DNA of 37,709 nucleotides, taken from the IMG/VR virus record IMGVR_UViG_3300044516_001758, positions 1 to 37,709 of that record. One strand, written 5' to 3'. The position numbers and the translations under genes are program-made. Position 1 is the first letter of the stretch; the number at the start of each line of letters is the position of its first letter. Positions 2,299 to 37,380 of the stretch are shown here, in pieces. The DNA comes from a virus. Under the pieces are notes generated by a model that did not search any database, was not told the origin of the DNA, and was given only the letters and a program-made list of their open reading frames with translations.

Positions 2299-4551
2299 AT
2301 GTCAACTAAAGCATTGTCGGATTATACATTCGTTTCTCGTTATGCTCGTTATAACAAAGAATTAGGAAGAAGAGAAACTTGGCATGAAGCTATTGAGCGT
2401 GTCAAAAACATGCATTTGACAAAATTTCCCATGGTTGCAGATGAGATAAATTTCGCATTTGAGCATGTTCATAATAAAGTGGCACTTGGAAGTCAAAGAG
2501 CATTGCAGTTTGGTGGAACTCCAATTTTGAAAAAAGAAGCTAGAATTTATAATTGTTCTGCTGGTTATTGTGATCGACCTAGTTTTTTTCAAGAAGCGAT
2601 TTGGCTTTTGCTTTGCGGTTGTGGTGTTGGCGTTAGCGTGACTAAAAATCATGTTGATAAAATGCCTAATTTCCACAATGGTTTGAAAAGTGCAAAAGAT
2701 TTTTCCGAAGAAAAGATTTACGAAATAGAAGATTCAATAGAAGGATGGGCGGATGCATTTGGTGTTTTACTTGCGTCTTATTTGCCACATTTGCAATTTC
2801 ATGAATATTATGGGAAAAGAGTATCTTTCAATTATTCCAAAATAAGACCTCAAGGTTCGCCTTTGTCTTATGGAATTGGAAAAGCTCCGGGTCCTAAACC
2901 TTTGGAAAATAGTTTAGAAAAATGCCGTTCATTAATGAATAATTGTTTGGAATTGAATCTTAGAAAAATTAGACCAATAGATTGCATGGATTATCTTTTG
3001 CATGCAAGTGATTGCGTTCTTAGCGGTGGAATTAGAAGATCTGCTGTTATTGTTTTGTTTTCTAAAGAAGACAATGAAATGATGACTGCAAAAACTGGGT
3101 CTTGGTATTATGAAAATCCACAAAGAGCTAGAAGCAATAATTCGGTTTTGCTAGACAAAGCAACAACTACATTTGAAGAATATCACAAATTATTTGAATC
3201 AACCAAACAATTTGGAGAGCCGGGAATTGTTTGGACGGATTGTGTTAACGAACAATTATTTAATCCTTGCAACGAAATTAGTTTGCGTGGATATGACGAA
3301 TTTGGAAACTCTGGATTCCAATTTTGTAATTTGACTGAAATAAATGGAAGCAAATTAACATCAAAAGAAAATTTTGCTTTGGCTGTAAGAGTTGCTTCTA
3401 TAATTGGAACTTTGCAATCTGGATATACAAAGTTTGATTATTTGGGTTCTATAAGTGAAAGCATAACAAAGAAAGAATCTTTGCTTGGTGTTTCGATCAC
3501 AGGCATGATGGATAATCCTAAGATTTGCTTTGATCCTTCTATTCAGAGAGAAATGGCTGGATTGGTATTAGAAGTAAATGCTGATATTGCAAATAAGATT
3601 GGAATTAATTTATCTGCAAGAAGCACAACAGTAAAACCTGCTGGAACTACTTCTTGTATTTTACAAACATCGAGTGGTATTCATCCACATCATGCTGAAA
3701 GATATATCCGTAGAGTTCAAAGTAACGCTATGGAAAATCCAATTCAACATTTCTCAACGATAAATCCAAGTGCAATAGAAACATCCGTATGGAGTGCAAA
3801 TGGAACAGACAAAGTTATAAGTTTTCTCATAGAGACTCATAAGGATGCTCTAACTAAAGCTAACATTGATGCGATTCAATTGCTTGAATATGTAAAACTC
3901 ACACAAGAAAATTGGATTGAGAGTGGAAAAAGAAAAGAGATATGTGCTGCTCCTTGGTTGTCTCACAATGTTAGCAATACCATTAATGTTCATGATCATG
4001 AATGGTCAGCAGTTGAAAGCTTTATTTATGATAATAGAAAAAGTTTCGCTGGAATATCTTTGCTTGGTTCCACGGGAGATTTGGATTATCCACAAGCTCC
4101 ATTCACGAGAGTTCTTACAGTTGACGAAATAGTCATTAAATATGGAAAAGGTTGCATCTTTGCATCTGGATTGATTGTCGATGCACTTCATGCATTTCAT
4201 AATAACTTATGGCGAGCTTGTGATGCTGCCTTGGGTGTTTTCGAGGTTCAAGAGCCAAAGGTTCCAGAAAAATTAAATGATGAAATAATGCAAAAATTAC
4301 AATCAGAATGGGTTCATTGCAACTTACAAAAAGATTGGGTTAGAAGAGCAAAACAATTTGCCGAAAGACATTTACAGAATAATGTCAAAGAACTTACTTA
4401 TCTTTTGAAAGACATAAACAACAATAAATTATGGGAAGATTTGAGTAGAGTTTACAAGGATGTAGATTATACTGCCATGTACGAAGAAGAAGATAACACT
4501 AAGCTTATGGAAAATGTTGCTTGTGCTGGAGGTGCGTGTCAATTATTTTAA
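2299..4551 (+). CDS. nrdJ: Adenosylcobalamin-dependent (class II) ribonucleotide reductase, monomeric triphosphate type
   Basis: Reduces ribonucleotides to deoxyribonucleotides using adenosylcobalamin as radical source. The 750-residue length fits the monomeric RTPR type (Lactobacillus leichmannii enzyme, about 740). The active-site signature NPCNE gives the thiyl-radical Cys324 and Glu326. A redox pair is visible as Cys86 (YNCSAGYC region) and Cys343 (FCNLTEIN). The C-terminus ends CAGGACQLF (Cys742, Cys747), the shuttle cysteines that re-reduce the active site. The loop VKPAGTTSC is also typical. No N-terminal ATP-cone is apparent. A ribosome site AAAGAGG lies just before the ATG. It is oxygen-indifferent but needs B12 from the host or environment, which may bear on the AAA+/VWA pair at 8984-11327. 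Confidence 0.93.
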   Translation: MSTKALSDYTFVSRYARYNKELGRRETWHEAIERVKNMHLTKFPMVADEINFAFEHVHNKVALGSQRALQFGGTPILKKEARIYNCSAGYCDRPSFFQEAIWLLLCGCGVGVSVTKNHVDKMPNFHNGLKSAKDFSEEKIYEIEDSIEGWADAFGVLLASYLPHLQFHEYYGKRVSFNYSKIRPQGSPLSYGIGKAPGPKPLENSLEKCRSLMNNCLELNLRKIRPIDCMDYLLHASDCVLSGGIRRSAVIVLFSKEDNEMMTAKTGSWYYENPQRARSNNSVLLDKATTTFEEYHKLFESTKQFGEPGIVWTDCVNEQLFNPCNEISLRGYDEFGNSGFQFCNLTEINGSKLTSKENFALAVRVASIIGTLQSGYTKFDYLGSISESITKKESLLGVSITGMMDNPKICFDPSIQREMAGLVLEVNADIANKIGINLSARSTTVKPAGTTSCILQTSSGIHPHHAERYIRRVQSNAMENPIQHFSTINPSAIETSVWSANGTDKVISFLIETHKDALTKANIDAIQLLEYVKLTQENWIESGKRKEICAAPWLSHNVSNTINVHDHEWSAVESFIYDNRKSFAGISLLGSTGDLDYPQAPFTRVLTVDEIVIKYGKGCIFASGLIVDALHAFHNNLWRACDAALGVFEVQEPKVPEKLNDEIMQKLQSEWVHCNLQKDWVRRAKQFAERHLQNNVKELTYLLKDINNNKLWEDLSRVYKDVDYTAMYEEEDNTKLMENVACAGGACQLF

Positions 4552-4609: not shown

Positions 4610-6250
4610 ATGGCTAAATACATTTTTGTAGTTGGTGGCGTTATCTCTGGAACAGGCAAAGGTGTCGCAGCTGCTAGTATAGGTCTTCTACTAAGACTTC
4701 GTGGTCATAATATTACGCTAGTTAAGTTTGATCCATATTACAATATCAACGCTGGCATTCTTGGACCCGGAGAACATGGTGAATGTTTTCTCTGTGATGA
4801 CGGAACTGAAACAGATTTGGATCTTGGACATTACGAAAGAATTGCTGGAATAACTGTTAGTAAAAATAATATTTGCACACATGGGATTCTTCAAAAAGAA
4901 TTAATTGAAGAGCAAGAGCATGGCAAATATCTTGGTGAAACTATTCAAGTTAATCCTCATCTAACCGATAAGATTGAAAAAAGATTAGTTGATTTGGGTA
5001 AAAGTCACGATATTGTTATCGCAGAAGTCGGTGGCACAGTCGGAGACTCGGAAAGCTTTGCGTTTTTTGAATCTATTCGACTATTTAAACAAATTCATCG
5101 TGCTAATGTTTTGATTGTTATGGTTGCTCCAATTCTTTGGGTTAAAACAATCAAGGAGTTCAAGACTAAGCCTTTGCAAAATGCTGTAAAAGAATTGCAA
5201 AGACACGGACTTCAGCCAGATGTTCTTTTTTGCAGAACAGAAAGCTCCGTGCCAGAAAAGATCATGAAAAAAGTTTCTCAACTTTCTAATGTAACTAGAG
5301 AATGTGTTTTTGATGCTCCTGACTTTGAATCAATTTATCAAGTTCCTCTTTCGTTTTATGATCGTCATGTAGATGATTTGTTTGTTGATTTGTTACATTT
5401 AAATAGAAGTTCTTGCAGAATACACAAGTATCGAGATGTGGTTGAAAAATATACCAACAACAATCTTCAGCCTGTGACTATTGGAATTTTTGGGAAGTAT
5501 GATAATTGCGATGAAGCATACATTTCTTTAAAAGAAGCGTTACTACATGCTGGAATCGTTAATGATGCTAAAGTTCTAATCAAGTGGTATAAAAGCGAAG
5601 AATTAGAAAAATACAAAGACAACAGAGGGTTGCACAAAATTTTTGATGAGTTGGATGGCATTATTATTCCCGGCGGTTTTGACAATCGTGGTATTGAGGG
5701 GAAAATAAAAGCCATTCAATATGTTCGTGAAAAGAAAATTCCATTTTTAGGAATATGCTTAGGGTTGCAGTGTGCCGTCATCGAATTTTCCAGAAATGTT
5801 TGCAAATTAGATGATGCAAATAGCATGGAATTTGACAAAGAAACAAAACATCCTGTTGTTAAGTTCGTTCAAGGACAAGAGGCTATTGTCAAAAAAGCTG
5901 CAAGTATGAGGCTTGGGTCATATGATTGCGAATTGAAAAAAGATTCAATTGTTTATGACTTATATGGTCAAAAAATCATTCAAGAAAGACACAGGCATCG
6001 TTACGAAGTTAATGAGGAATATGTTTCTCAGCTTGAAACCAAAGGTTTTATTGTAAGTGGCAGAAACCCTCAAACTAATCTTGTGGAAATTATGGAATTA
6101 AATAGGGATATTCATCCTTATTTTGTAGGAACGCAAGCCCATCCAGAATTTAAAAGCAAATTAACAGCTGCAGCACCTTTGTTCGTAGGATTGATTGCTT
6201 TTTCACTTAAAAACAAAAAACTTGAAGCTGAAACCATAAATAAAGTATGA
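4610..6250 (+). CDS. pyrG: CTP synthase
   Basis: Converts UTP, ATP and glutamine to CTP. The 546 residues match the usual length (about 545 in E. coli). The N-terminal synthase domain has the P-loop-like GGVISGTGKG (residues 9-18), KFDPYYNINAG and TETDLDLGHYER. The C-terminal class I glutaminase domain has PGGFDNRG, nucleophile Cys383 in GICLGLQ, and His511/Glu513 in the HPEF motif, so the triad is intact. Compared with bacterial enzymes the loop normally reading SSLGKG is SGTGKG and the CTP-inhibition/UTP-binding stretch after it is altered, which could change feedback control (inference). TGAGG precedes the start. The stop overlaps the next ATG (ATGA), so translation is coupled. Confidence 0.95.
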   Translation: MAKYIFVVGGVISGTGKGVAAASIGLLLRLRGHNITLVKFDPYYNINAGILGPGEHGECFLCDDGTETDLDLGHYERIAGITVSKNNICTHGILQKELIEEQEHGKYLGETIQVNPHLTDKIEKRLVDLGKSHDIVIAEVGGTVGDSESFAFFESIRLFKQIHRANVLIVMVAPILWVKTIKEFKTKPLQNAVKELQRHGLQPDVLFCRTESSVPEKIMKKVSQLSNVTRECVFDAPDFESIYQVPLSFYDRHVDDLFVDLLHLNRSSCRIHKYRDVVEKYTNNNLQPVTIGIFGKYDNCDEAYISLKEALLHAGIVNDAKVLIKWYKSEELEKYKDNRGLHKIFDELDGIIIPGGFDNRGIEGKIKAIQYVREKKIPFLGICLGLQCAVIEFSRNVCKLDDANSMEFDKETKHPVVKFVQGQEAIVKKAASMRLGSYDCELKKDSIVYDLYGQKIIQERHRHRYEVNEEYVSQLETKGFIVSGRNPQTNLVEIMELNRDIHPYFVGTQAHPEFKSKLTAAAPLFVGLIAFSLKNKKLEAETINKV

Positions 6251-6780: not shown

Positions 6781-7914
6781 ATGTGCGGAATAGCTGGCTT
6801 TATAGGGAAATCTAAAAACAACACATTATCATTTGAACTTTTATCTGAATTATTCGAAAGGCTAGATTCTCGTGGCATAGATGCTTCTGGATATTGGTTG
6901 GCAGAAAGCGGAGATAATGGAAGTGTTTATACTCACAAACAACCGGGAAGATCTAGCGAATTTGTAAATTCTGATATTTGGAAATCTAACAAAAATGTCG
7001 AAGTGAATTTAGCTTTGGTTCATGCCCGTGGAGCTAGTCGTGGCTCTGGAAATCCGATGGTAAATAAAAATAATCATCCATTCTTAAGCGAAAAAAGCAA
7101 TATAGCATTAATTCACAACGGCAGAATTGATGAATATGATTCTTTGAAAAAGAAATATCATGTTCATTCCCAATGTGATTCTGAAATTCTTTTGAGAATA
7201 TTCGAACAAGCTAAACACCAATACTCTGAAAATTTCTTAAATGAATATATCGGAATCTTGCCAGAACGAGAAAGAATGGCTGGAATTAAAGACATATTTT
7301 CTTATGTAACTCAAGGTCATATGGCAGTTGCTATTGGAGAGTGGAAAAATAATAATGGTAGAAATTTATGGTTATTTAGAAATGAACATAGACCATTATG
7401 GATTGCTGATGCGAGAAATAATCTTGGTCAAATATTTTTCTTTTCAGACCCTTCAATTTGGAAAAGTGCAGCCAATGCTTTAGGTGATAAATCAATAATC
7501 AATTCAAAAATAATTGAAGTTATAGATCATGAGATTTGGCATTTTTCATTAGATTCTGAAAAACAAAATATTACATATCCTAGCAAATATTATGTAACTT
7601 CATCTGAATGTAAAGAATGGTCTTATAGCGGAAATGCATTATCTCTTGCAAAAGATGATATAGAAGTAAATATAATAACTCCATTATCTACAGGGGAAGA
7701 TTATGTTCCTGCAGCTGATGATGATGCTGATAAGCTCCTTGATGAAATGGAAAAAAAAATCGAGAAGATACAAGAGACATGCAGAAACATTTATGCAAAT
7801 TCCCAAGTATTACTTAGGAACAATTCTATTTCTGTTAGTGATGTGGAACAAATTTTATCTTTGTTAGATGAACAGAAAAAATCATTTTTAGATATAGAAA
7901 ATATTTTCGACTAG
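6781..7914 (+). CDS. Class II glutamine amidotransferase (GFAT-type glutaminase domain)
   Basis: Ntn-hydrolase glutaminase that releases ammonia from glutamine. Met-Cys at the N-terminus gives catalytic Cys2 after Met removal. The motifs follow the order of glucosamine-6-phosphate synthase: DSRGIDASG (29-37), HARGASRG (81-88), NNHPF (97-101), HNGRID (112-117) and CDSE (132-135). The domain ends near residue 260. The last about 110 residues hold an acidic linker and a coiled coil, not the SIS sugar-isomerase domains of GFAT and not an Asn-synthetase ATP domain. The acceptor of the ammonia is therefore unknown; a partner protein is needed. A GNA1-like enzyme of the next hexosamine step lies at 31910-32341. 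AGGAGAA precedes the ATG. Confidence 0.85.
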   Translation: MCGIAGFIGKSKNNTLSFELLSELFERLDSRGIDASGYWLAESGDNGSVYTHKQPGRSSEFVNSDIWKSNKNVEVNLALVHARGASRGSGNPMVNKNNHPFLSEKSNIALIHNGRIDEYDSLKKKYHVHSQCDSEILLRIFEQAKHQYSENFLNEYIGILPERERMAGIKDIFSYVTQGHMAVAIGEWKNNNGRNLWLFRNEHRPLWIADARNNLGQIFFFSDPSIWKSAANALGDKSIINSKIIEVIDHEIWHFSLDSEKQNITYPSKYYVTSSECKEWSYSGNALSLAKDDIEVNIITPLSTGEDYVPAADDDADKLLDEMEKKIEKIQETCRNIYANSQVLLRNNSISVSDVEQILSLLDEQKKSFLDIENIFD

Positions 7915-14382: not shown

Positions 14383-14731
14383 GCAAGCACTTAAGGATTC
14401 AAGATTTAGAGATACTTTACCACCAGACATGATGGAAGAAGTACATAAATTTTTAAAAAACCCCGGATGTGCATGCAACATGCCATTGTATCGAAAAATT
14501 TTATCTGATTGTTCCGATCAAATAAAACAGTATTTTCCAAATCGTGAAATTAGTAATATTCAAGAAGAAGTAAAAAGACTCGCACAGAATAAATTTTCAG
14601 TTATAAATTGTTCTGTAGATGATCTTGAAGGTCATTTGAGAAAACTTGGAGTTGGAAGAAAACAAATTGCGATATCAAGATACGAAGACCAAGTTACTGT
14701 TATTGTGAATGATTTAGATGTTATTTATTAG
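14345..14731 (+). CDS. Conserved unknown phage protein (128 residues)
   Basis: Begins MSQNKTITLLDIKQALKDS and holds NPGCACNMPLYRKIL around residues 39-53, a style I associate with small conserved proteins of T4-like aquatic phages; function unknown. The C-terminal third is a short alpha/beta unit. TGAGG lies upstream of the ATG within the preceding gene. The 3' end overlaps the convergent glycosyltransferase by 11 bases. Confidence 0.65.
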   Translation: MSQNKTITLLDIKQALKDSRFRDTLPPDMMEEVHKFLKNPGCACNMPLYRKILSDCSDQIKQYFPNREISNIQEEVKRLAQNKFSVINCSVDDLEGHLRKLGVGRKQIAISRYEDQVTVIVNDLDVIY

Positions 14732-15677
14732 ACTTATACAATTTAGAGGAATTTATAACATTTTTACAATTTAACATCATTTCTTCTGGATGCTTTTTAT
14801 ATTTTTCAATATGGAATGGAAATTCATCATCCTTAAGTCTTCGTGAACCTAAAAGCATTGCATTTTCATAAAAATGAAATGCTTTTTCAAATTTATCTAA
14901 GGAATAATATATGTCTCCTAGCAAACACCAATATTCAGCCATCAGAGGCTTTTCTATAATAATTTCAAACAAGATTTGTGATGCTAATTTGTAATTCTTT
15001 TCAACATATGCATAAATCATTGCAAGATAATATTTTGTCATAAAATATGACATAGGTTTGTTCTTTTCTAAAAACAAATAATGATTGGCAGTTCTAATGA
15101 AATCATTCCATTTATTTTTTCCAAGATAAATACAACTCAAGTAATAGTGAGTTTGTGCCACTAGTGGCTTTTCTCTCATCCAATTTTTTATGATCTCCAT
15201 GTTCTCTTCATAACGATCAATTGTTTGAGATTTCACGAATATATCACTATGTTTAGAAGAATGAGATATGTGTTCGAATACTGGATTTGAAAAAATACAA
15301 TTATTTGATTTATTTATCAAACGAATTGGTTTTGTAATAACCTGTTCTTGTATGACACTTATTCTTCTGCAATCTTTACCTTCAATATATTCTTGTATTT
15401 TATCTAAACCTTTTAATATAATTTCATTGGCATTTAAAAACATCATCCATTCTGTTTCGCATTGATTTATAATTTTGTTTTTTATTTTTGCGTAATCGTT
15501 GTGAAATCCAAAGAATATAGTCTTGCATCCAATCTTTTCGATGATATCAGAAGATTTATCCGAACTGTTTATGTCAGCAATAAGTATTTCGGAATCTAAT
15601 TTCTTACATGAATCAATACACTCGGCAAGTGTAGATTCATTATTTCTGCATGTTATTACGAATGTGAAATTTTTCAT
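14721..15677 (-). CDS. Glycosyltransferase family 2-like protein with C-terminal TPR repeats
   Basis: 318 residues from the ATG at 15677 (an upstream TTG at 15692 would add five). The N-terminal domain FTFVITCRNNESTLAECIDS, ILIADINSSDKSSDI and WMMFLNANE follows GT2 enzymes of the lipopolysaccharide/SunS kind. However the usual LDADE metal-binding motif reads LNANE, losing the first Asp, so activity is doubtful. Residues about 185-290 form TPR-like helical pairs. A 60-residue TPR-like frame immediately upstream overlaps its start by 38 bases. No clear ribosome site, so expression may depend on coupling. Confidence 0.75.
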   Translation of the reverse strand: MKNFTFVITCRNNESTLAECIDSCKKLDSEILIADINSSDKSSDIIEKIGCKTIFFGFHNDYAKIKNKIINQCETEWMMFLNANEIILKGLDKIQEYIEGKDCRRISVIQEQVITKPIRLINKSNNCIFSNPVFEHISHSSKHSDIFVKSQTIDRYEENMEIIKNWMREKPLVAQTHYYLSCIYLGKNKWNDFIRTANHYLFLEKNKPMSYFMTKYYLAMIYAYVEKNYKLASQILFEIIIEKPLMAEYWCLLGDIYYSLDKFEKAFHFYENAMLLGSRRLKDDEFPFHIEKYKKHPEEMMLNCKNVINSSKLYKSNK

Positions 15678-15822
15678 TAAATTTCGTTTCAATTAAATGT
15701 ATAATGGCTTCGGCTTCGTTGTACCTTCCAATATGATTATAATACAGACATAATTCTTTGTAATACTTTGGCGAATGAGGATTTTCAATGATTCCTAACA
15801 TTATATCAGATATTTTCAACAA
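15640..15822 (-). CDS. Small TPR-like protein upstream of glycosyltransferase
   Basis: 60 residues starting at a TTG (15822) preceded at 5 bases by TAGGAG. A later in-frame ATG at 15801 has no ribosome site, so the TTG is favoured. SPKYYKELCLYYNHIGRYNEAEAIIHLI has the spacing of one TPR. It could be a detached N-terminal TPR of the next protein, split by an old frameshift, or a separate coupled gene. Its 5' end overlaps the divergent gene at 15788 by 35 bases. Confidence 0.5.
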   Translation of the reverse strand: MLKISDIMLGIIENPHSPKYYKELCLYYNHIGRYNEAEAIIHLIETKFNEKFHIRNNMQK

Positions 15823-16693
15823 ATTCGCTCCTACTCGTAATGTCCTTACGCTAAAGAAACCATGGGAAGGAAGTATCGAAAAAAAACCTTGGCATCACAA
15901 AGTTACAGCGGTTATTCCAGTCATGGATACATTCGAACAACTTAACATATGTATTCAACTGTTGAAAGAACAATCATCAAAGCCATTTGTTGTAATTGTA
16001 GATACTGGTAGCAATGAAGAAGAATACAAAAAGATATGTGGCTTAAGGAATGATGATGTTGAGGTTCACAGTTTGAAATTTAATGGCGTTCTCCATCCAA
16101 GTGACTTTCCAGCTATTGCCATGGATTTAGCATTTTCATGCTGTCGAACTGAATATTTATTTGCCACTCATTCTGATGTTTTTTTAAGAAAAAAAACACT
16201 TTTAAATGAGATGATCGATTTGTGCAAAACAAATTCTCCAGTTGTTGGATATGAAATATCGCCTAGAGCGCACGAAGATTGGAAGGGAATGGTTTCTCAT
16301 ACCGCTACCATGTACCACATTCCAACAATGGATATAATCGGCTTTGGATGGAGTTTACGCAGACTTTGCAACATATTTAATATCAAAGATCCAATACCAG
16401 ATCCAAGACGACCTTGTTGGCCAGATACGGAGTTGTTGGGTAATTATATTTTAAGATCACACAAAATTGAACCACACTTAATTGGCAAAGAAGAAAATTT
16501 CAAAAGAACATTAGATGATAATATTGATCACTTTAGAAGTTTTACATCAGGAAAATTGTATAGTCGTTCCTACTATAAGATATGCGACAAATGGTATGAA
16601 GATGCCAAAAAAGAAGCTCTTGAACGAATTGAAGAATGGAAGAAAGAAAATAACATGAACATTCATTTAAAATCTAAGGAACTTAATGGCTAA
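15788..16693 (+). CDS. Glycosyltransferase family 2-like protein
   Basis: 301 residues with a GT-A fold pattern: VTAVIPVMDTFEQL (40-53), FVVIVDTGSNEEEYK and YLFATHSDVFL, where the Asp stands in for the metal-binding motif. The region ending WPDTELLGNYIL probably closes the acceptor site. Substrates unknown. ATG at 15788 has GAGG at the right distance. The start lies inside the 5' end of the opposite-strand TPR frame. Followed by gp55 with an 8-base overlap. Confidence 0.78.
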   Translation: MIPNIISDIFNKFAPTRNVLTLKKPWEGSIEKKPWHHKVTAVIPVMDTFEQLNICIQLLKEQSSKPFVVIVDTGSNEEEYKKICGLRNDDVEVHSLKFNGVLHPSDFPAIAMDLAFSCCRTEYLFATHSDVFLRKKTLLNEMIDLCKTNSPVVGYEISPRAHEDWKGMVSHTATMYHIPTMDIIGFGWSLRRLCNIFNIKDPIPDPRRPCWPDTELLGNYILRSHKIEPHLIGKEENFKRTLDDNIDHFRSFTSGKLYSRSYYKICDKWYEDAKKEALERIEEWKKENNMNIHLKSKELNG

Positions 16694-31909: not shown

Positions 31910-32341
31910 TCATGAATCTTTACGCATTTGTAAAGAAGATTTTTTAAAGCCAAATTTTTCGTAAAATACACTTACACTTTCATCGCAATCTAAGATAGTT
32001 TTGTAGCAATTTTTTTTATCGGCTTCAAATAGCAGGTGTTCTATGAGTAATTTTCCAATTCCACGACCACGATAGTTTGGATGAACAATAATATCTTCTA
32101 TGTGAGCAACTTTTCCGCCATTGTGAATAAACTTCTGTTCTATCATGAGTGTTCCAGAAGCTATTGTTTTGTTTAAATCTTTAGCAATATATATCTCAAT
32201 ATTGATTGGAAGTGAGCGATATATTTCTTTTGCCTCAGACACTGAAATTATGCAGGGGCGAAAGGTTGAAATGGTATCAATAAAATTCTGATCTATTGAT
32301 TCTTCATTTAATTTTGAAATTATCATCGTTCCCTTAAACAT
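31910..32341 (-). CDS. GNAT acetyltransferase, GNA1-like (glucosamine-6-phosphate N-acetyltransferase)
   Basis: 143 residues. The run GTLMIEQKFIHNGGKVAHIED (63-83, two motifs), RGRGIGKLLIEHLL (91-104, acetyl-CoA loop), KKNCYKTILDC and VFYEKFGF follows the order of human GNPNAT1 (KFIH, GK-L, NCYK, FY-KFGY). This is far more specific than a generic GNAT. The enzyme makes GlcNAc-6-phosphate in the eukaryotic-type route to UDP-GlcNAc. ATG at 32341 overlaps the C39 gene by 8 bases; an ATG at 32326 is an alternative. Confidence 0.8.
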   Translation of the reverse strand: MFKGTMIISKLNEESIDQNFIDTISTFRPCIISVSEAKEIYRSLPINIEIYIAKDLNKTIASGTLMIEQKFIHNGGKVAHIEDIIVHPNYRGRGIGKLLIEHLLFEADKKNCYKTILDCDESVSVFYEKFGFKKSSLQMRKDS

Positions 32342-32846
32342 ATTGTTTTTTTACAAACCAAGCATATGGCGAAACTCCACAAAAATTTGAAGTTCCACAA
32401 AAGTCACAATAAGCCCTGTGGTATTGCAAATAATACTGAGCAAATAATTTTTTATTGTACCACATATGTTTGCCTTCTACATTTACGCAGAAAAACTGTT
32501 CATCTGTCATATTTGATATTATAAAGAAATGTCCTTCTATTTTTCTTTTATCAAGAACATAAGAAGACTTCATAATTATAATTTGCTCAGATGCCAAAGC
32601 TTGTTCGATTAATGCTATGGTTGGAAGATTTTTCGAAATGATTGTTGCGTTTTTAATATTGTTTAGGCATATTTGAAAGTAGTGTTGATGTGTTCCACCT
32701 TCTGTGCAACGACATTTTTTCTTCCAAAATTTATAATTTTGCTTATAGCTTATGGGAAATCCAATCCATTTTAATGTGTTTAAAATGGCAATAGGACCAC
32801 AAGAGTAAAGATTCTTTTGGGCTATCCAGCGTATATTTTCTGCCAT
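32334..32846 (-). CDS. Peptidase C39-like cysteine protease
   Basis: 170 residues. Gln10 and Cys16 in QKNLYSCGPIAILNTL match the oxyanion Gln and catalytic Cys of C39 bacteriocin-processing peptidases. His106 in EGHFFIIS and the Asn122 in VNVEG complete the triad. Cys pairs (KKCRC; CDFCGTSNFC near the C-terminus) may bind zinc. No ABC transporter is attached. Target unknown; it heads an operon with the GNA1-like and nucleotidyltransferase genes. GTGAGG precedes the ATG. Confidence 0.75.
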   Translation of the reverse strand: MAENIRWIAQKNLYSCGPIAILNTLKWIGFPISYKQNYKFWKKKCRCTEGGTHQHYFQICLNNIKNATIISKNLPTIALIEQALASEQIIIMKSSYVLDKRKIEGHFFIISNMTDEQFFCVNVEGKHMWYNKKLFAQYYLQYHRAYCDFCGTSNFCGVSPYAWFVKKQYV

Positions 32847-34388: not shown

Positions 34389-35027
34389 ATGTATGAGTAT
34401 AAAATCGAAATTTTTCCAGTCGAACAAAAAATGAAAGAAGAATTATCTGATGAATTCTATAAAAATTGCACAGTTTGCTCAAAACAAGTGCTAATAAATC
34501 ATGATATGGTACAAAAAATTCCCAAAAGTATTGTTGATGATGAATTTTTTTGCAGCTTTTGTTTTCGCAAAGATATGAAATCAAAAAAAATTGTCATCTT
34601 TTCATTCAAATCAATCATTGCTTATCTTTATGAAATTTATAAATCAAAAAACTCAGAAAACCCATTGTTTCTAAGCCAAATAGAAGATTATATAGAAATT
34701 CATAAAAAATCAGGACTTAAACATTTGGCTTTGGATTATGACGATGAGTCATTTAATTGGTTTTTGAACATCGATCTTATTGGCAATGAAGGTAATCAAA
34801 TATTGTTTAGAGAATTAGAAAAAACAATAATTGAGATATTGGTCTGCTTCAATCCATCTTATTTAAAAATAGATTCTCATTTTATGTATTGTTCCATAAA
34901 ACAAGCAATTGAATCTGCCATTGAAAATATAAACACCATAAAAAATCCAATCATTATATTGCCTTTGATAAATCAAAAGCAATCATTAGATAAGCTAAAA
35001 TTATTCTCTAATAATTTTTTATTTTAA
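34389..35027 (+). CDS. Unknown protein with N-terminal zinc-finger-like motif (212 residues)
   Basis: Cys27-x2-Cys30 and Cys55-x2-Cys58 (CTVC, CSFC) form a probable zinc finger in the first 60 residues. The remainder is helical and hydrophobic/acidic, with no known fold. It has a good ribosome site (GAAGAAGGGG) and a sigma70-like promoter, hinting at early expression. Overlaps the convergent glycosyltransferase end by 9 bases. Confidence 0.65.
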   Translation: MYEYKIEIFPVEQKMKEELSDEFYKNCTVCSKQVLINHDMVQKIPKSIVDDEFFCSFCFRKDMKSKKIVIFSFKSIIAYLYEIYKSKNSENPLFLSQIEDYIEIHKKSGLKHLALDYDDESFNWFLNIDLIGNEGNQILFRELEKTIIEILVCFNPSYLKIDSHFMYCSIKQAIESAIENINTIKNPIIILPLINQKQSLDKLKLFSNNFLF

Positions 35028-35870
35028 TTTTCTTTTTTCATATATCGTAGATAAATTTTCTAAATATGCCAAATTATTTGAGACTGAGTAATCACGATTT
35101 TTTGTTCTTATCAATACTTCAAGCTCTTCTACTAAGTCGCCATCATTTGTTTTAAAAATAAGAACCTTCATTTTTTCTATTATATAATCAACTGCCCAAC
35201 TATCCATGCTTTCGGAAAGAGAATCAACATTCATAATATATGTGGTAACATCTGTATGGAATGAAAGTCCCGGTATGCAAACCATTAATTTTCTTTTATA
35301 TGTTTTTTGCAAACGCTCAAAAATCTCGTGATCATTTGGATGAAAATTGACACAAAACTTTTTGAAAACCCTAAAAAAATCATCTTTAATAGTTTTATAC
35401 TTACAGGCAAATGTCATGGTGGTACTGACAGAGGTTTTCCAATGTTGATTTTTAACTCGTTGTACCTTGCTTGTTTCTCCACAACTATACATTCTAGAAT
35501 ATTTGTCAGGATGATCAAAAAGAGTCAAATAATCAGCTAGATTGAGTGCATTTTCTAAAGTACTTTTACTGTTTGGATGATGGAGATAATCATCTTCAAC
35601 AAAATAAATTAGTTCATCATTTTCTATACCTTCTTTAGCAAGAATATCGACAGAATAAATAAATGAAGGTGCATTACCAAGTTTGGTTACATGGAATTGC
35701 TCCGCCACAGTAGAAATTTTTTCAATTGTTTCATTCGAGCAATTGTCAGCTATTAAATAATCAATTTTTCCAAATGTTTCTAAAAAGTTTTCAAGACAAA
35801 GCAATTTGGTTGCTCCGGGAAGTTTTGGCTTCACATATCCATTATCGCTAATTCTATAAACTGTTTTCAT
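35019..35870 (-). CDS. Glycosyltransferase-like protein (GT-A type)
   Basis: 283 residues. Nucleotide-sugar half: DYLIADNCSNETIEKI (37-52) and YFVEDDYLHHP (89-99), the latter holding the DxD-type acidic metal site. Acceptor half: WKTSVSTTMTF and FHPNDHEIFERL, a likely catalytic Asp/His-Glu region. No TPR part. It overlaps the preceding TPR-glycosyltransferase by 17 bases, so both are one operon. Donor and acceptor unknown. Confidence 0.75.
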   Translation of the reverse strand: MKTVYRISDNGYVKPKLPGATKLLCLENFLETFGKIDYLIADNCSNETIEKISTVAEQFHVTKLGNAPSFIYSVDILAKEGIENDELIYFVEDDYLHHPNSKSTLENALNLADYLTLFDHPDKYSRMYSCGETSKVQRVKNQHWKTSVSTTMTFACKYKTIKDDFFRVFKKFCVNFHPNDHEIFERLQKTYKRKLMVCIPGLSFHTDVTTYIMNVDSLSESMDSWAVDYIIEKMKVLIFKTNDGDLVEELEVLIRTKNRDYSVSNNLAYLENLSTIYEKRKLK

Positions 35871-37380
35871 GTGACCTCATGATTTCTTCGTAAATTTCTT
35901 CAAAAACATAATCCCAATCATTGAGATTTTTCTGCCTAAATAACTTTACGGATGGATACCATTCAGTTTTTGTACCATCTAACTTCCATCTCCAATCACC
36001 ATTCCAAGAAATCAAGGCAAATGTTGGCTTTCCCAATGAACCAGCCAAATGCAATATTGAAGTATCGACAGTAATAATCAAATCCATCGCCTCAATAATC
36101 GAAGCCGTATAATCATAATCTTTTTGAAATTCAGATGCATCTACAATTTTAAAATTATCTGCACCATCTGTTAAATCTACAGGCTCATCTTCAAAACGAT
36201 ACATTCTAGGACGCATATCTTTTTGTAAGTTAAATAATTTGACATGAGGAATGTCGTGTATTTTCTTAAAATCTTTTAATTTACAAGATCTGTATTTGTC
36301 ATTTGGATGCTGAGGATTTCCAGCCCAAACAATTCCAATTTTGAAATTATCTTTATAATCTTCTGTATTGAACTTTTTTGTTGATTTTAAATATGGATCA
36401 TTGGGAATAAAATTCATATCAAGAATGTATGGTAGGCTTATAATAGAGCAATGATAATCATGAATTGGCATGTCGAAATCAGCATCCCTATGCTTATATC
36501 CCGGAATTTCTGCTGGTTCTTTTGTATAAATTTCATCAACTTCCGATTCGAACAACGGCTTTAAACTTTCCCAACAATGTAAGATTATATAAGCACCCTT
36601 TTGTTTCATAAATTTAACATAACGAAAGAAATGAATCATATCGCCAGTTCCTTGTTCGGAATGGATTAGTATTCTTTTATCATTTATGTTTTGTCCACAT
36701 TTAAGCCTTTTTTCTGGATCGAATATAAAATCCCAAAACTTAGACTGTTCGTAAAGTTTGAACCTCCATTCATATTCAGACCAAGCTTCTTTCCATTGAC
36801 CTCTAAATTGATATATTGATGCTAAATCAACATGAGCAGCAGCAGAATCTTTATTTAACTTTATCGCAGCAATAAAACAACTTTCCGCTTTATACAAATC
36901 TCTAATTTCTCCATAACAACCACCAAGCATACTCCAAGATTCTGCCGATTCTTTTATTTCTAAAGCAGTTTCAAAACACGCAATTGCTTTGTCTATTTGT
37001 TTGTTGCTTCTATATTGCAAGCCAAGATTAGAATAAATGTAATCTAAATCTGGTCTTAGGGTTTTTGCTTTTTCTAAAACCTTAATCGCTTCGGTGTATT
37101 TACCAAGACCAGAGAGGCATAATCCAATGTTGTTGTAATTTTCAAAATTATTTGGCTCAATTAATGTTGATTTTTTAAAGTAATCTAAAGCTGCGTCATA
37201 ATCTTGTTGTTTGTGTTTCAACAATCCAAGAAGTTGAATTATTTTTGCATTATTTGGATCTATTTTTAAGATTTGAGTCGCAAGAAGTTCTGCATCTCTA
37301 TCTTTTCCACAAGAAAACCTATCAATAAGCAAGGTTTCTGCTTTTTCTTTGATGTTTTTTATTTCTTCTTCGTTAAACAT
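35854..37380 (-). CDS. TPR repeats fused to GT9/GT41-like glycosyltransferase
   Basis: 508 residues. About residues 30-200 hold five or so TPR units (NAKIIQLLGLLKHKQQDYDAAL, FENYNNIGLCLSGLGKYTEA and so on). From about 230: HSEQGTGDMIHFFRYVKFMK, IGIVWAGNPQHPNDKYRSC and ITVDTSILHLAGSLGKPTFAL, matching ADP-heptosyltransferase-like (GT9) domains often joined to TPRs in bacteria and phages. It probably transfers sugars to protein or glycan acceptors. GGAGAA precedes the ATG. Confidence 0.88.
   Translation of the reverse strand: MFNEEEIKNIKEKAETLLIDRFSCGKDRDAELLATQILKIDPNNAKIIQLLGLLKHKQQDYDAALDYFKKSTLIEPNNFENYNNIGLCLSGLGKYTEAIKVLEKAKTLRPDLDYIYSNLGLQYRSNKQIDKAIACFETALEIKESAESWSMLGGCYGEIRDLYKAESCFIAAIKLNKDSAAAHVDLASIYQFRGQWKEAWSEYEWRFKLYEQSKFWDFIFDPEKRLKCGQNINDKRILIHSEQGTGDMIHFFRYVKFMKQKGAYIILHCWESLKPLFESEVDEIYTKEPAEIPGYKHRDADFDMPIHDYHCSIISLPYILDMNFIPNDPYLKSTKKFNTEDYKDNFKIGIVWAGNPQHPNDKYRSCKLKDFKKIHDIPHVKLFNLQKDMRPRMYRFEDEPVDLTDGADNFKIVDASEFQKDYDYTASIIEAMDLIITVDTSILHLAGSLGKPTFALISWNGDWRWKLDGTKTEWYPSVKLFRQKNLNDWDYVFEEIYEEIMRSHENSL

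Follow-up and report, generated by a model that had tools for sequence, protein, structure and literature searches.

A GNA1-family acetyltransferase gene beside an RmlA-like nucleotidyltransferase gene in a T4-like phage, with a possible role in making an activated amino sugar

The window studied here is the whole stretch of 37,709 bases that forms one IMG/VR virus record. On its minus strand lies a real open reading frame for an N-acetyltransferase of GNA1 type, preceded by the gene of a 170-aa protein and followed by the gene of a short sugar-1-phosphate nucleotidyltransferase (Table 1). The 170-aa ORF overlaps the longest reading of the acetyltransferase ORF by 8 bp. A Shine-Dalgarno-like AAGGG is found directly upstream of the second ATG of the acetyltransferase ORF, and for this reason a true start at 32326, giving 138 aa, is more likely. 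The nucleotidyltransferase gene starts 10 bp downstream of the acetyltransferase gene on the same strand, and the Shine-Dalgarno-like AGGA ahead of it overlaps the end of the acetyltransferase gene. Because of these two motifs, the three genes look like one translation-coupled unit. Searches of Pfam, PHROGs, NCBIfam and PADLOC gave no match to the 170-aa protein under the limits applied, and its best PDB match had an E-value of 0.043; judged by eye, it may resemble C39/papain-like peptidases. Among the loci compared, its ORF was present only in those of the source phage. When the window was compared with a close variant (95% identity across the shared stretch), dN/dS was 0.08 for the 170-aa ORF, 0.07 for the nucleotidyltransferase gene and about 0.21 for the acetyltransferase gene, all of them rough values because of the few differences involved (12 in the acetyltransferase gene, where the changes were mostly synonymous).

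Table 1. Position, strand and supporting evidence of the features discussed in the window.
Feature	Position	Strand	Evidence
Stand-alone class II glutaminase-like protein, 377 aa; probably not in the GNA1 pathway	6781..7914	+	Pfam, NCBIfam, PDB
GT2 protein whose C-terminal region is TPR-like; may use the sugar nucleotide	14721..15692	-	GT2, 43 bits
Weak glycosyltransferase family 2 match	15788..16693	+	Below Pfam cut-off
Short RmlA-type sugar-1-phosphate nucleotidyltransferase, 249 aa	31150..31899	-	NTP_transferase, PDB, NCBIfam
GNA1-family N-acetyltransferase, 143 aa	31910..32341	-	Pfam GNAT, PDB matches, fold, residues
170-aa protein, first gene of likely three-gene unit	32334..32846	-	ORF; no database match
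283-aa protein overlapping the TPR-GT9 gene	35019..35870	-	No glycosyltransferase match
TPR repeats and weak GT9 match; may use the sugar nucleotide	35854..37380	-	Below Pfam cut-off

A longer record of 76,363 bases (G001) contains the whole window at an identity of at least 99.98%. Tail sheath and T4-type baseplate genes are present in the window, and a T4-type Gp23 major capsid protein is encoded at the end of G001 opposite the window. Hence, the source is a T4-like phage; it is a bacterial virus and belongs to a large-phage lineage. No near DNA relative was found among annotated phages for window bases 1-25000, the part that was compared. No host could be inferred from the tRNA search, which found no tRNA genes in the window, or from the tail sheath, which was 28-34% identical to that of phages of different hosts in the three best rows. 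A link to defence systems was considered and rejected, with a single marginal match (E 0.0079). Other genes observed were a CTP synthase-like gene (by eye, 4610-6250) and a ribonucleotide reductase gene (2299-4551; its B12-type insertion domain scored below the cut-off) in the window, and a gene for a subtilisin-like protease (Peptidase_S8, E 2e-51) in the part of G001 beyond the window (L009:8405-9346).

The acetyltransferase passed the cut-offs of two Pfam GNAT families, Acetyltransf_7 (E 6.6e-16) and Acetyltransf_1 (E 3.5e-15). A PDB sequence search matched 45 distinct sequences, of which the best nine, from six organisms (plant, trypanosome, yeast, Aspergillus, human and worm), had E-values from 2.5e-21 to 2e-12. 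Eight of these nine carry the name GNA1 or a synonym of it; the remaining one, T. brucei 3fb3, is named only as an N-acetyltransferase, and we take it to be TbGNA1. The first match outside GNA1 was 2dxq, an unrelated GNAT (E 3.7e-10). When a profile of four phage rows was compared with the PDB, the same nine sequences led (2e-30 to 3.5e-20) and the next followed at 6.7e-14.

Structure comparison pointed in the same direction. An AlphaFold2 model built from 41 rows reached a pLDDT of 94.5. The first 25 rows retrieved with this model by Foldseek were GNA1 enzymes, T. brucei entries counted in, and the first nine rows of VIA-align were likewise GNA1 (T. brucei included), with Z-scores of 18.4-19.6. 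The modelled fold thus agrees best with GNA1. Two other GNATs, 1z4e and 2dxq, came next at Z 18.0, no more than 1 below several of the GNA1 rows, and because they follow so closely the fold alone would not decide the identity of the enzyme.

The active site was compared with that of C. elegans GNA1, for which E104, D105, K136, C141, Y149, M161 and R164 are named in the part of the publication covered (PMC3413214). These residues were placed on the phage protein through the gap-free yeast alignment from the PDB search, in which the first six correspond to yeast E98, D99, K130, C135, Y143 and M155. All six of these sugar, thiolate and active-site residues are kept in the phage protein, as E82, D83, K114, C119, Y127 and M139, so that six of the seven named residues are conserved. 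The column of the seventh, the second phosphate-binding Arg (R164 in C. elegans, R158 in yeast), holds Asp142; the phage protein has an Arg two residues earlier (R140), and T. brucei 3fb3 likewise carries Arg in that column. Furthermore, E82, C112, Y113, K114, I116, L117 and C119 were invariant in 43 aligned relatives, the last six of them forming a C-Y-K-x-I-L-x-C motif. The proposal in the sequence-only reading that this gene is GNA1-like was therefore borne out by its leading matches in sequence and fold and by the conserved residues, and no grouping with non-GNA1 GNATs came about. We assign the protein to the GNA1 family, and the predicted acetylation of GlcN-6-P is well supported by its sequence.

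The neighbouring nucleotidyltransferase was also recognised correctly in the earlier reading as RmlA-like. It matched Pfam NTP_transferase with an E-value of 5e-57, and the 21 best PDB sequences were glucose-1-phosphate thymidylyltransferases. In the PDB comparison it was far nearer to RmlA (E 5.5e-66) than to GlmU (5e-7). The first NCBIfam model was RmlA TIGR01207, with a score below the curated cut-off (236.7 of 360.65 bits), and the subfamily, at 249 aa, is shorter than full RmlA at 289 aa. By these comparisons the enzyme is RmlA-like, not GlmU- or UAP-like. RmlA enzymes often accept amino-sugar phosphates. A homologue with 46.6% identity occurs in the dTDP-rhamnose operon rmlBACD of the coliphage Justusliebigvirus; that homologue is a full-length RmlA in a four-gene rhamnose set, and no GNA1 is annotated in the stretch of that phage that was seen.

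Four glycosyltransferase-like proteins had been counted in the window. One of these is clear, two scored below the Pfam cut-offs, and the fourth, the 283-aa protein, fell away. Just beyond the window, G001 encodes two further GT2 proteins, of 567 and 239 aa, together with a pair of NAD-dependent epimerases. The first epimerase scored alike with dTDP-glucose dehydratase and GalE and the other was nearest to heptose epimerase; both remained below all NCBIfam cut-offs, including that of dTDP-glucose dehydratase. No SIS domain or phosphohexomutase was found in G001 and G003, two larger and possibly incomplete records of the source phage, in agreement with the earlier view that the isomerase and mutase are missing. 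DegT aminotransferases were likewise not found in G001, G003, G041 and G042; the 595-kb relative LR756511 does encode DegT-type aminotransferases, beside an epimerase, at a distance of more than 70 kb from the GNAT gene.

A further gene had been brought into the pathway as a GFAT-like glutaminase without isomerase domains. This protein starts with MCGIAGF, with Cys directly after the start Met, and C2, R83, N113, G114 and D133 were invariant in 10 rows. The class II assignment held, and Pfam found no SIS isomerase domains and no synthase domain in its 377 aa; the specific likeness to GFAT did not hold. GlmS was the best NCBIfam model with 70 of the 381 bits needed, PurF chains led the structure matches, and the protein is about equally close to PurF and GFAT. 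In the predicted model, the last 100 residues are of low confidence at first, then helical. Relatives occurred in 14 viral loci (three of the source phage or nearly so), up to a genome of 532 kb, and no GFAT domain set was found in their translations as read. None of the 12 other records carrying the glutaminase gave a GNA1 match in a search run without a positive control, and two of the 12 again gave none in a search in which other records did. With no SIS domain, no co-occurrence and no specific GFAT similarity, the glutaminase was rejected as the GFAT step, and its supposed part in an amino-sugar pathway gave way to membership of a separate stand-alone phage family. Because two records (L141/L156 and L145/L159) hold both the glutaminase and the nucleotidyltransferase, both genes are probably common in the source phage lineage. 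This family of stand-alone glutaminases in large phages includes the window gene, L141, L142, L143, L145, L147 and L151, and most members have an extra C-terminal part.

A viral scan for GNA1-like genes gave 26 loci, three of which belong to the source phage, and 27 viral records with a GNA1-like gene were searched for PF00483, SIS and phosphohexomutase domains. A PF00483 nucleotidyltransferase was present in three of the 27 (two records of the source phage, and LR756511), a GlmS-type SIS pair in four and a phosphohexomutase in none. At locus L113 (1584-3613), the start of a 530-aa GlmS overlaps the GNA1-like gene and a GDP-mannose-dehydratase-like gene lies downstream; this appears to be a two-step amino-sugar cassette in a virus. 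At L126 and L128 a 615-aa GlmS is found about 1.1 kb from the GNA1-like gene on the other strand. Glycosyltransferase genes occurred at L107 (a GT2 gene about 2.5 kb away, with a weak GT1 match nearby) and at L123, where a GT4-type gene overlaps the start of the GNA1-like gene. A distinct viral GNA1-like clade of eight distinct rows was formed by L110, L112, L114-L117, L120, L121, L124, L125 and L127. In the two loci of that clade that were read, L110 and L116, the GNA1-like gene lies by eye between PhoH-like and RNase HII-like genes, and no sugar genes were seen near it; such neighbours lend no weight to a sugar pathway.

The viral scan for the nucleotidyltransferase gave 53 loci, three of the source phage, and the GNA1 search covered the records of 37 of these loci and LR756511 (38 records in all). 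A GNA1-like gene was found in three of the 38, namely LR756511, the L158 record and the L160 record. When the nucleotidyltransferase was 62-73% identical to that of the window, three of nine other records had GNA1, compared with none of the 29 with less similar enzymes. GNA1 was not found in the remaining six close carriers, whose records may be fragments, and the L161 record gave no match though its nucleotidyltransferase neighbourhood looks the same as that of L160. The two genes are divergent and about 150 bp apart in L158, about 6.4 kb apart on one strand in LR756511, and about 33 kb apart in the L160 record, where by eye the GNA1 gene, of less typical sequence, adjoins a GT9-like gene. 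That the pair recurs in several arrangements speaks for a shared role of the two enzymes. The absence of GNA1 from most nucleotidyltransferase relatives implies that the nucleotidyltransferase may also have a use without GNA1.

In a scan of cellular genomes with a pattern that required the C-Y-K motif, 250 stretches matched, giving 239 relatives, of which the 80 most similar were kept. By title, these best 80 of 239 comprised 76 archaeal sequences, three from planctomycetes and one from Parcubacteria; the archaeal ones were nearly all Thaumarchaeota/Nitrososphaeria, in a selection that is no census. The best archaeal proteins were 46-47% identical to the phage protein, compared with 42% for yeast. 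Of the 80 loci, 69 had a nucleotidyltransferase no more than 1.5 kb from the GNA1-like gene; these 69 are all archaeal (L028-L106; e.g. L059:5267-6432), and since the archaea are related they are not 69 independent cases. Among the 11 loci without a nearby nucleotidyltransferase several were close to contig ends, and one planctomycete locus (Gemmataceae, L029) has an adjacent GlmS. The archaeal gene pair suggests that ammonia-oxidising archaea may reach activated GlcNAc by way of GNA1. Like the phage, Nitrososphaeria (Thaumarchaeota) combine a GNA1-like protein (about 40-47% identical) with a nucleotidyltransferase next door; unlike in the phage, the gene order is opposite, and their nucleotidyltransferase is only about 28% identical to that of the phage.

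The window gene branched beside Nitrososphaeria in both trees, weakly (support 95/77 in the first; 84/76 and 93/34 in the second). These trees rest on about 150 columns and on four eukaryotic rows, two of them partial; in both, exact copies were entered once and rows longer than 170 aa were cut to the last 165. From the second tree, L129, L007, L073 and L111 were excluded for their long branches, and L096 was excluded too; L047, L074 and L090 were not among the rows chosen, and L158 and L208 were new to it. Constraining the window gene with the four eukaryotes lowered lnL by 19.5, with a p-AU of 0.0645, which is above 0.05 and hence no rejection. The eukaryotic enzymes (yeast, plant, Trypanosoma, Aspergillus, human) share with the phage protein the family, the fold and most active-site residues; they are about 32-42% identical to it and separate from it in the trees, with weak support. 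The enzyme is therefore rightly called GNA1-type, and a eukaryotic origin is not supported. The nearest relatives found appear to be those of ammonia-oxidising archaea, planctomycetes and phages, in a tree too weak to state an origin.

A viral amino-sugar system with GNA1 is already known from Mimivirus, whose UDP-GlcNAc pathway comprises the GFAT L619, the GNA1 L316 and the pyrophosphorylase R689, all three assayed, with the mutase missing (PMC4691112 and PMC9614988, in the parts covered). The assayed L316 prefers GlcN-6-P 5-fold over GlcN-1-P, and this precedent limits the novelty of the present finding. Although the giant-virus glycan review calls L316 close to eukaryotic proteins, the nearest cellular relative that it gives is a protein of Nitrosopumilus, with 50% identity against 41% for the best eukaryote (PMC9614988). 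As far as these sources go, both viruses encode a GNA1-family enzyme and a prokaryote-type sugar-1-phosphate nucleotidyltransferase, with the mutase missing and an archaeal (Nitrosopumilus) protein among the nearest GNA1 relatives. In contrast to the phage, Mimivirus infects amoebae and has a full GFAT, a pyrophosphorylase resembling the GlmU N-domain, and scattered genes, whereas the phage has an RmlA-type enzyme in a coupled gene pair and no GFAT was found in G001 and G003.

For phages, the one GNA1 encountered in print was ORF40 of DSL-LC06, a phage that also has glycosyltransferases; it is annotated as GNA1 in the part of the source covered (PMC10611076). A PDB comparison of this ORF (L152:24979-25464, OR003941) gave no GNA1 match up to E 1, and its protein is without the C-Y-K and E-D motifs. 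It is a GNAT like that of the window, but a different one by both tests, and its annotation as a phage GNA1 is likely a misannotation. Glycan genes of jumbo phages have been described with no GNA1 in the parts covered (PMC7824862, PMC12619734), and an archaeal N-glycan paper names none in the parts covered (PMC12153357). No GNA1-nucleotidyltransferase pair in phages was found in titles and abstract starts of the open-licence PMC articles listed.

We give a probability of about 0.55 to the reading that the phage makes its own activated amino sugar by means of the GNA1-type enzyme and the coupled RmlA-type nucleotidyltransferase. This reading builds on the two genes, their kinship, the active-site residues, the gene order and the repeated association in related phages, all taken from sequence comparison. 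The GNA1-type enzyme would turn host GlcN-6-P into GlcNAc-6-P during infection. A mutase, either that of the host or one not yet found, would shift the phosphate to C1, converting GlcNAc-6-P to GlcNAc-1-P. This is the least certain step, because the bacterial mutase itself yields GlcN-1-P, not GlcNAc-1-P. The nucleotidyltransferase could then plausibly couple GlcNAc-1-P to dTTP or UTP, giving NDP-GlcNAc, which phage epimerases and glycosyltransferases could plausibly put on the virion, the DNA or the host surface. Against a joint pathway speak the closer kinship of the nucleotidyltransferase to RmlA than to GlmU, its homologue in the dTDP-rhamnose operon of Justusliebigvirus, the lack of SIS and phosphohexomutase matches in G001 and G003, and Asp142 in place of a phosphate-contacting Arg. 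Hence, from the phage-directed pathway proposed earlier we retain the GNA1 gene, its nucleotidyltransferase partner and the glycosyltransferases, add the epimerases, and leave out the glutaminase and the eukaryotic origin.

It is doubtful, though conceivable, that a true GlcN-6-P acetyltransferase merely shares a glycan locus with an independent RmlA-type enzyme that makes dTDP-glucose or another activated hexose. The family placement in RmlA, the complete rmlBACD operon around the coliphage homologue and the six of nine close relatives without a detected GNA1 fit such independence. However, the close pairing in two phages in different orientations (10 bp on the same strand, and the divergent pair of L158), the length of 249 instead of 289 aa with the failed NCBIfam cut-off for RmlA, and the failure of either G001 epimerase to reach the cut-off for dTDP-glucose dehydratase argue against it. 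We consider it quite unlikely that the GNAT acetylates an NDP-amino sugar at the end of a series of RmlA, dehydratase, aminotransferase and acetyltransferase; the RmlA-type neighbour and the DegT genes beside the epimerase of LR756511 would suit this series, but the sequence, fold and active site are those of GNA1, and DegT is either not found (G001, G003, G041, G042) or distant from the GNAT (LR756511).

Slightly less likely again is an action on the host itself, in which conversion of GlcN-6-P to GlcNAc-6-P drains a peptidoglycan precursor or misleads sugar-phosphate sensors. These sugar phosphates have a signalling role, a flux to an NDP-sugar is not assured as no mutase or isomerase was found, and only three of the 27 viral GNA1 records have a PF00483 nucleotidyltransferase; sugar genes beside GNA1 in the window, L113, L107, L123 and L208, however, point away from it. 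Finally, a GNAT for another substrate (protein, polyamine or antibiotic) that merely resembles GNA1 is very improbable, since the shared GNAT fold, with 1z4e and 2dxq close behind, is outweighed by the large E-value gap to non-GNA1 structures and by the invariant E82 and C-Y-K-x-I-L-x-C motif.

Bacteria acetylate GlcN-1-P with the bifunctional GlmU, and acetyltransferases of GNA1 type are those of eukaryotes and, as seen here, of many archaea. If the preferred reading, a phage-made activated amino sugar, is true, a phage acetylating GlcN-6-P would bypass the control point at GlmU, and viruses of bacteria and of amoebae would have arrived at the same amino-sugar strategy. More tentatively, it is possible that the acetylate-first route to activated GlcNAc is an ancient one of prokaryotes and viruses, present as the GNA1-nucleotidyltransferase pair in ammonia-oxidising archaea, and that large phages separately paired GNA1 with an RmlA-type enzyme. 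They would then make dTDP- or UDP-GlcNAc in bacterial cells without the host GlmU, as a private supply with which virion or DNA is glycosylated. The finding makes it testable whether Nitrososphaeria use the GNA1 route, and which targets the many glycosyltransferases of large phages decorate; the archaeal GNA1-nucleotidyltransferase gene pair may be the more general point.
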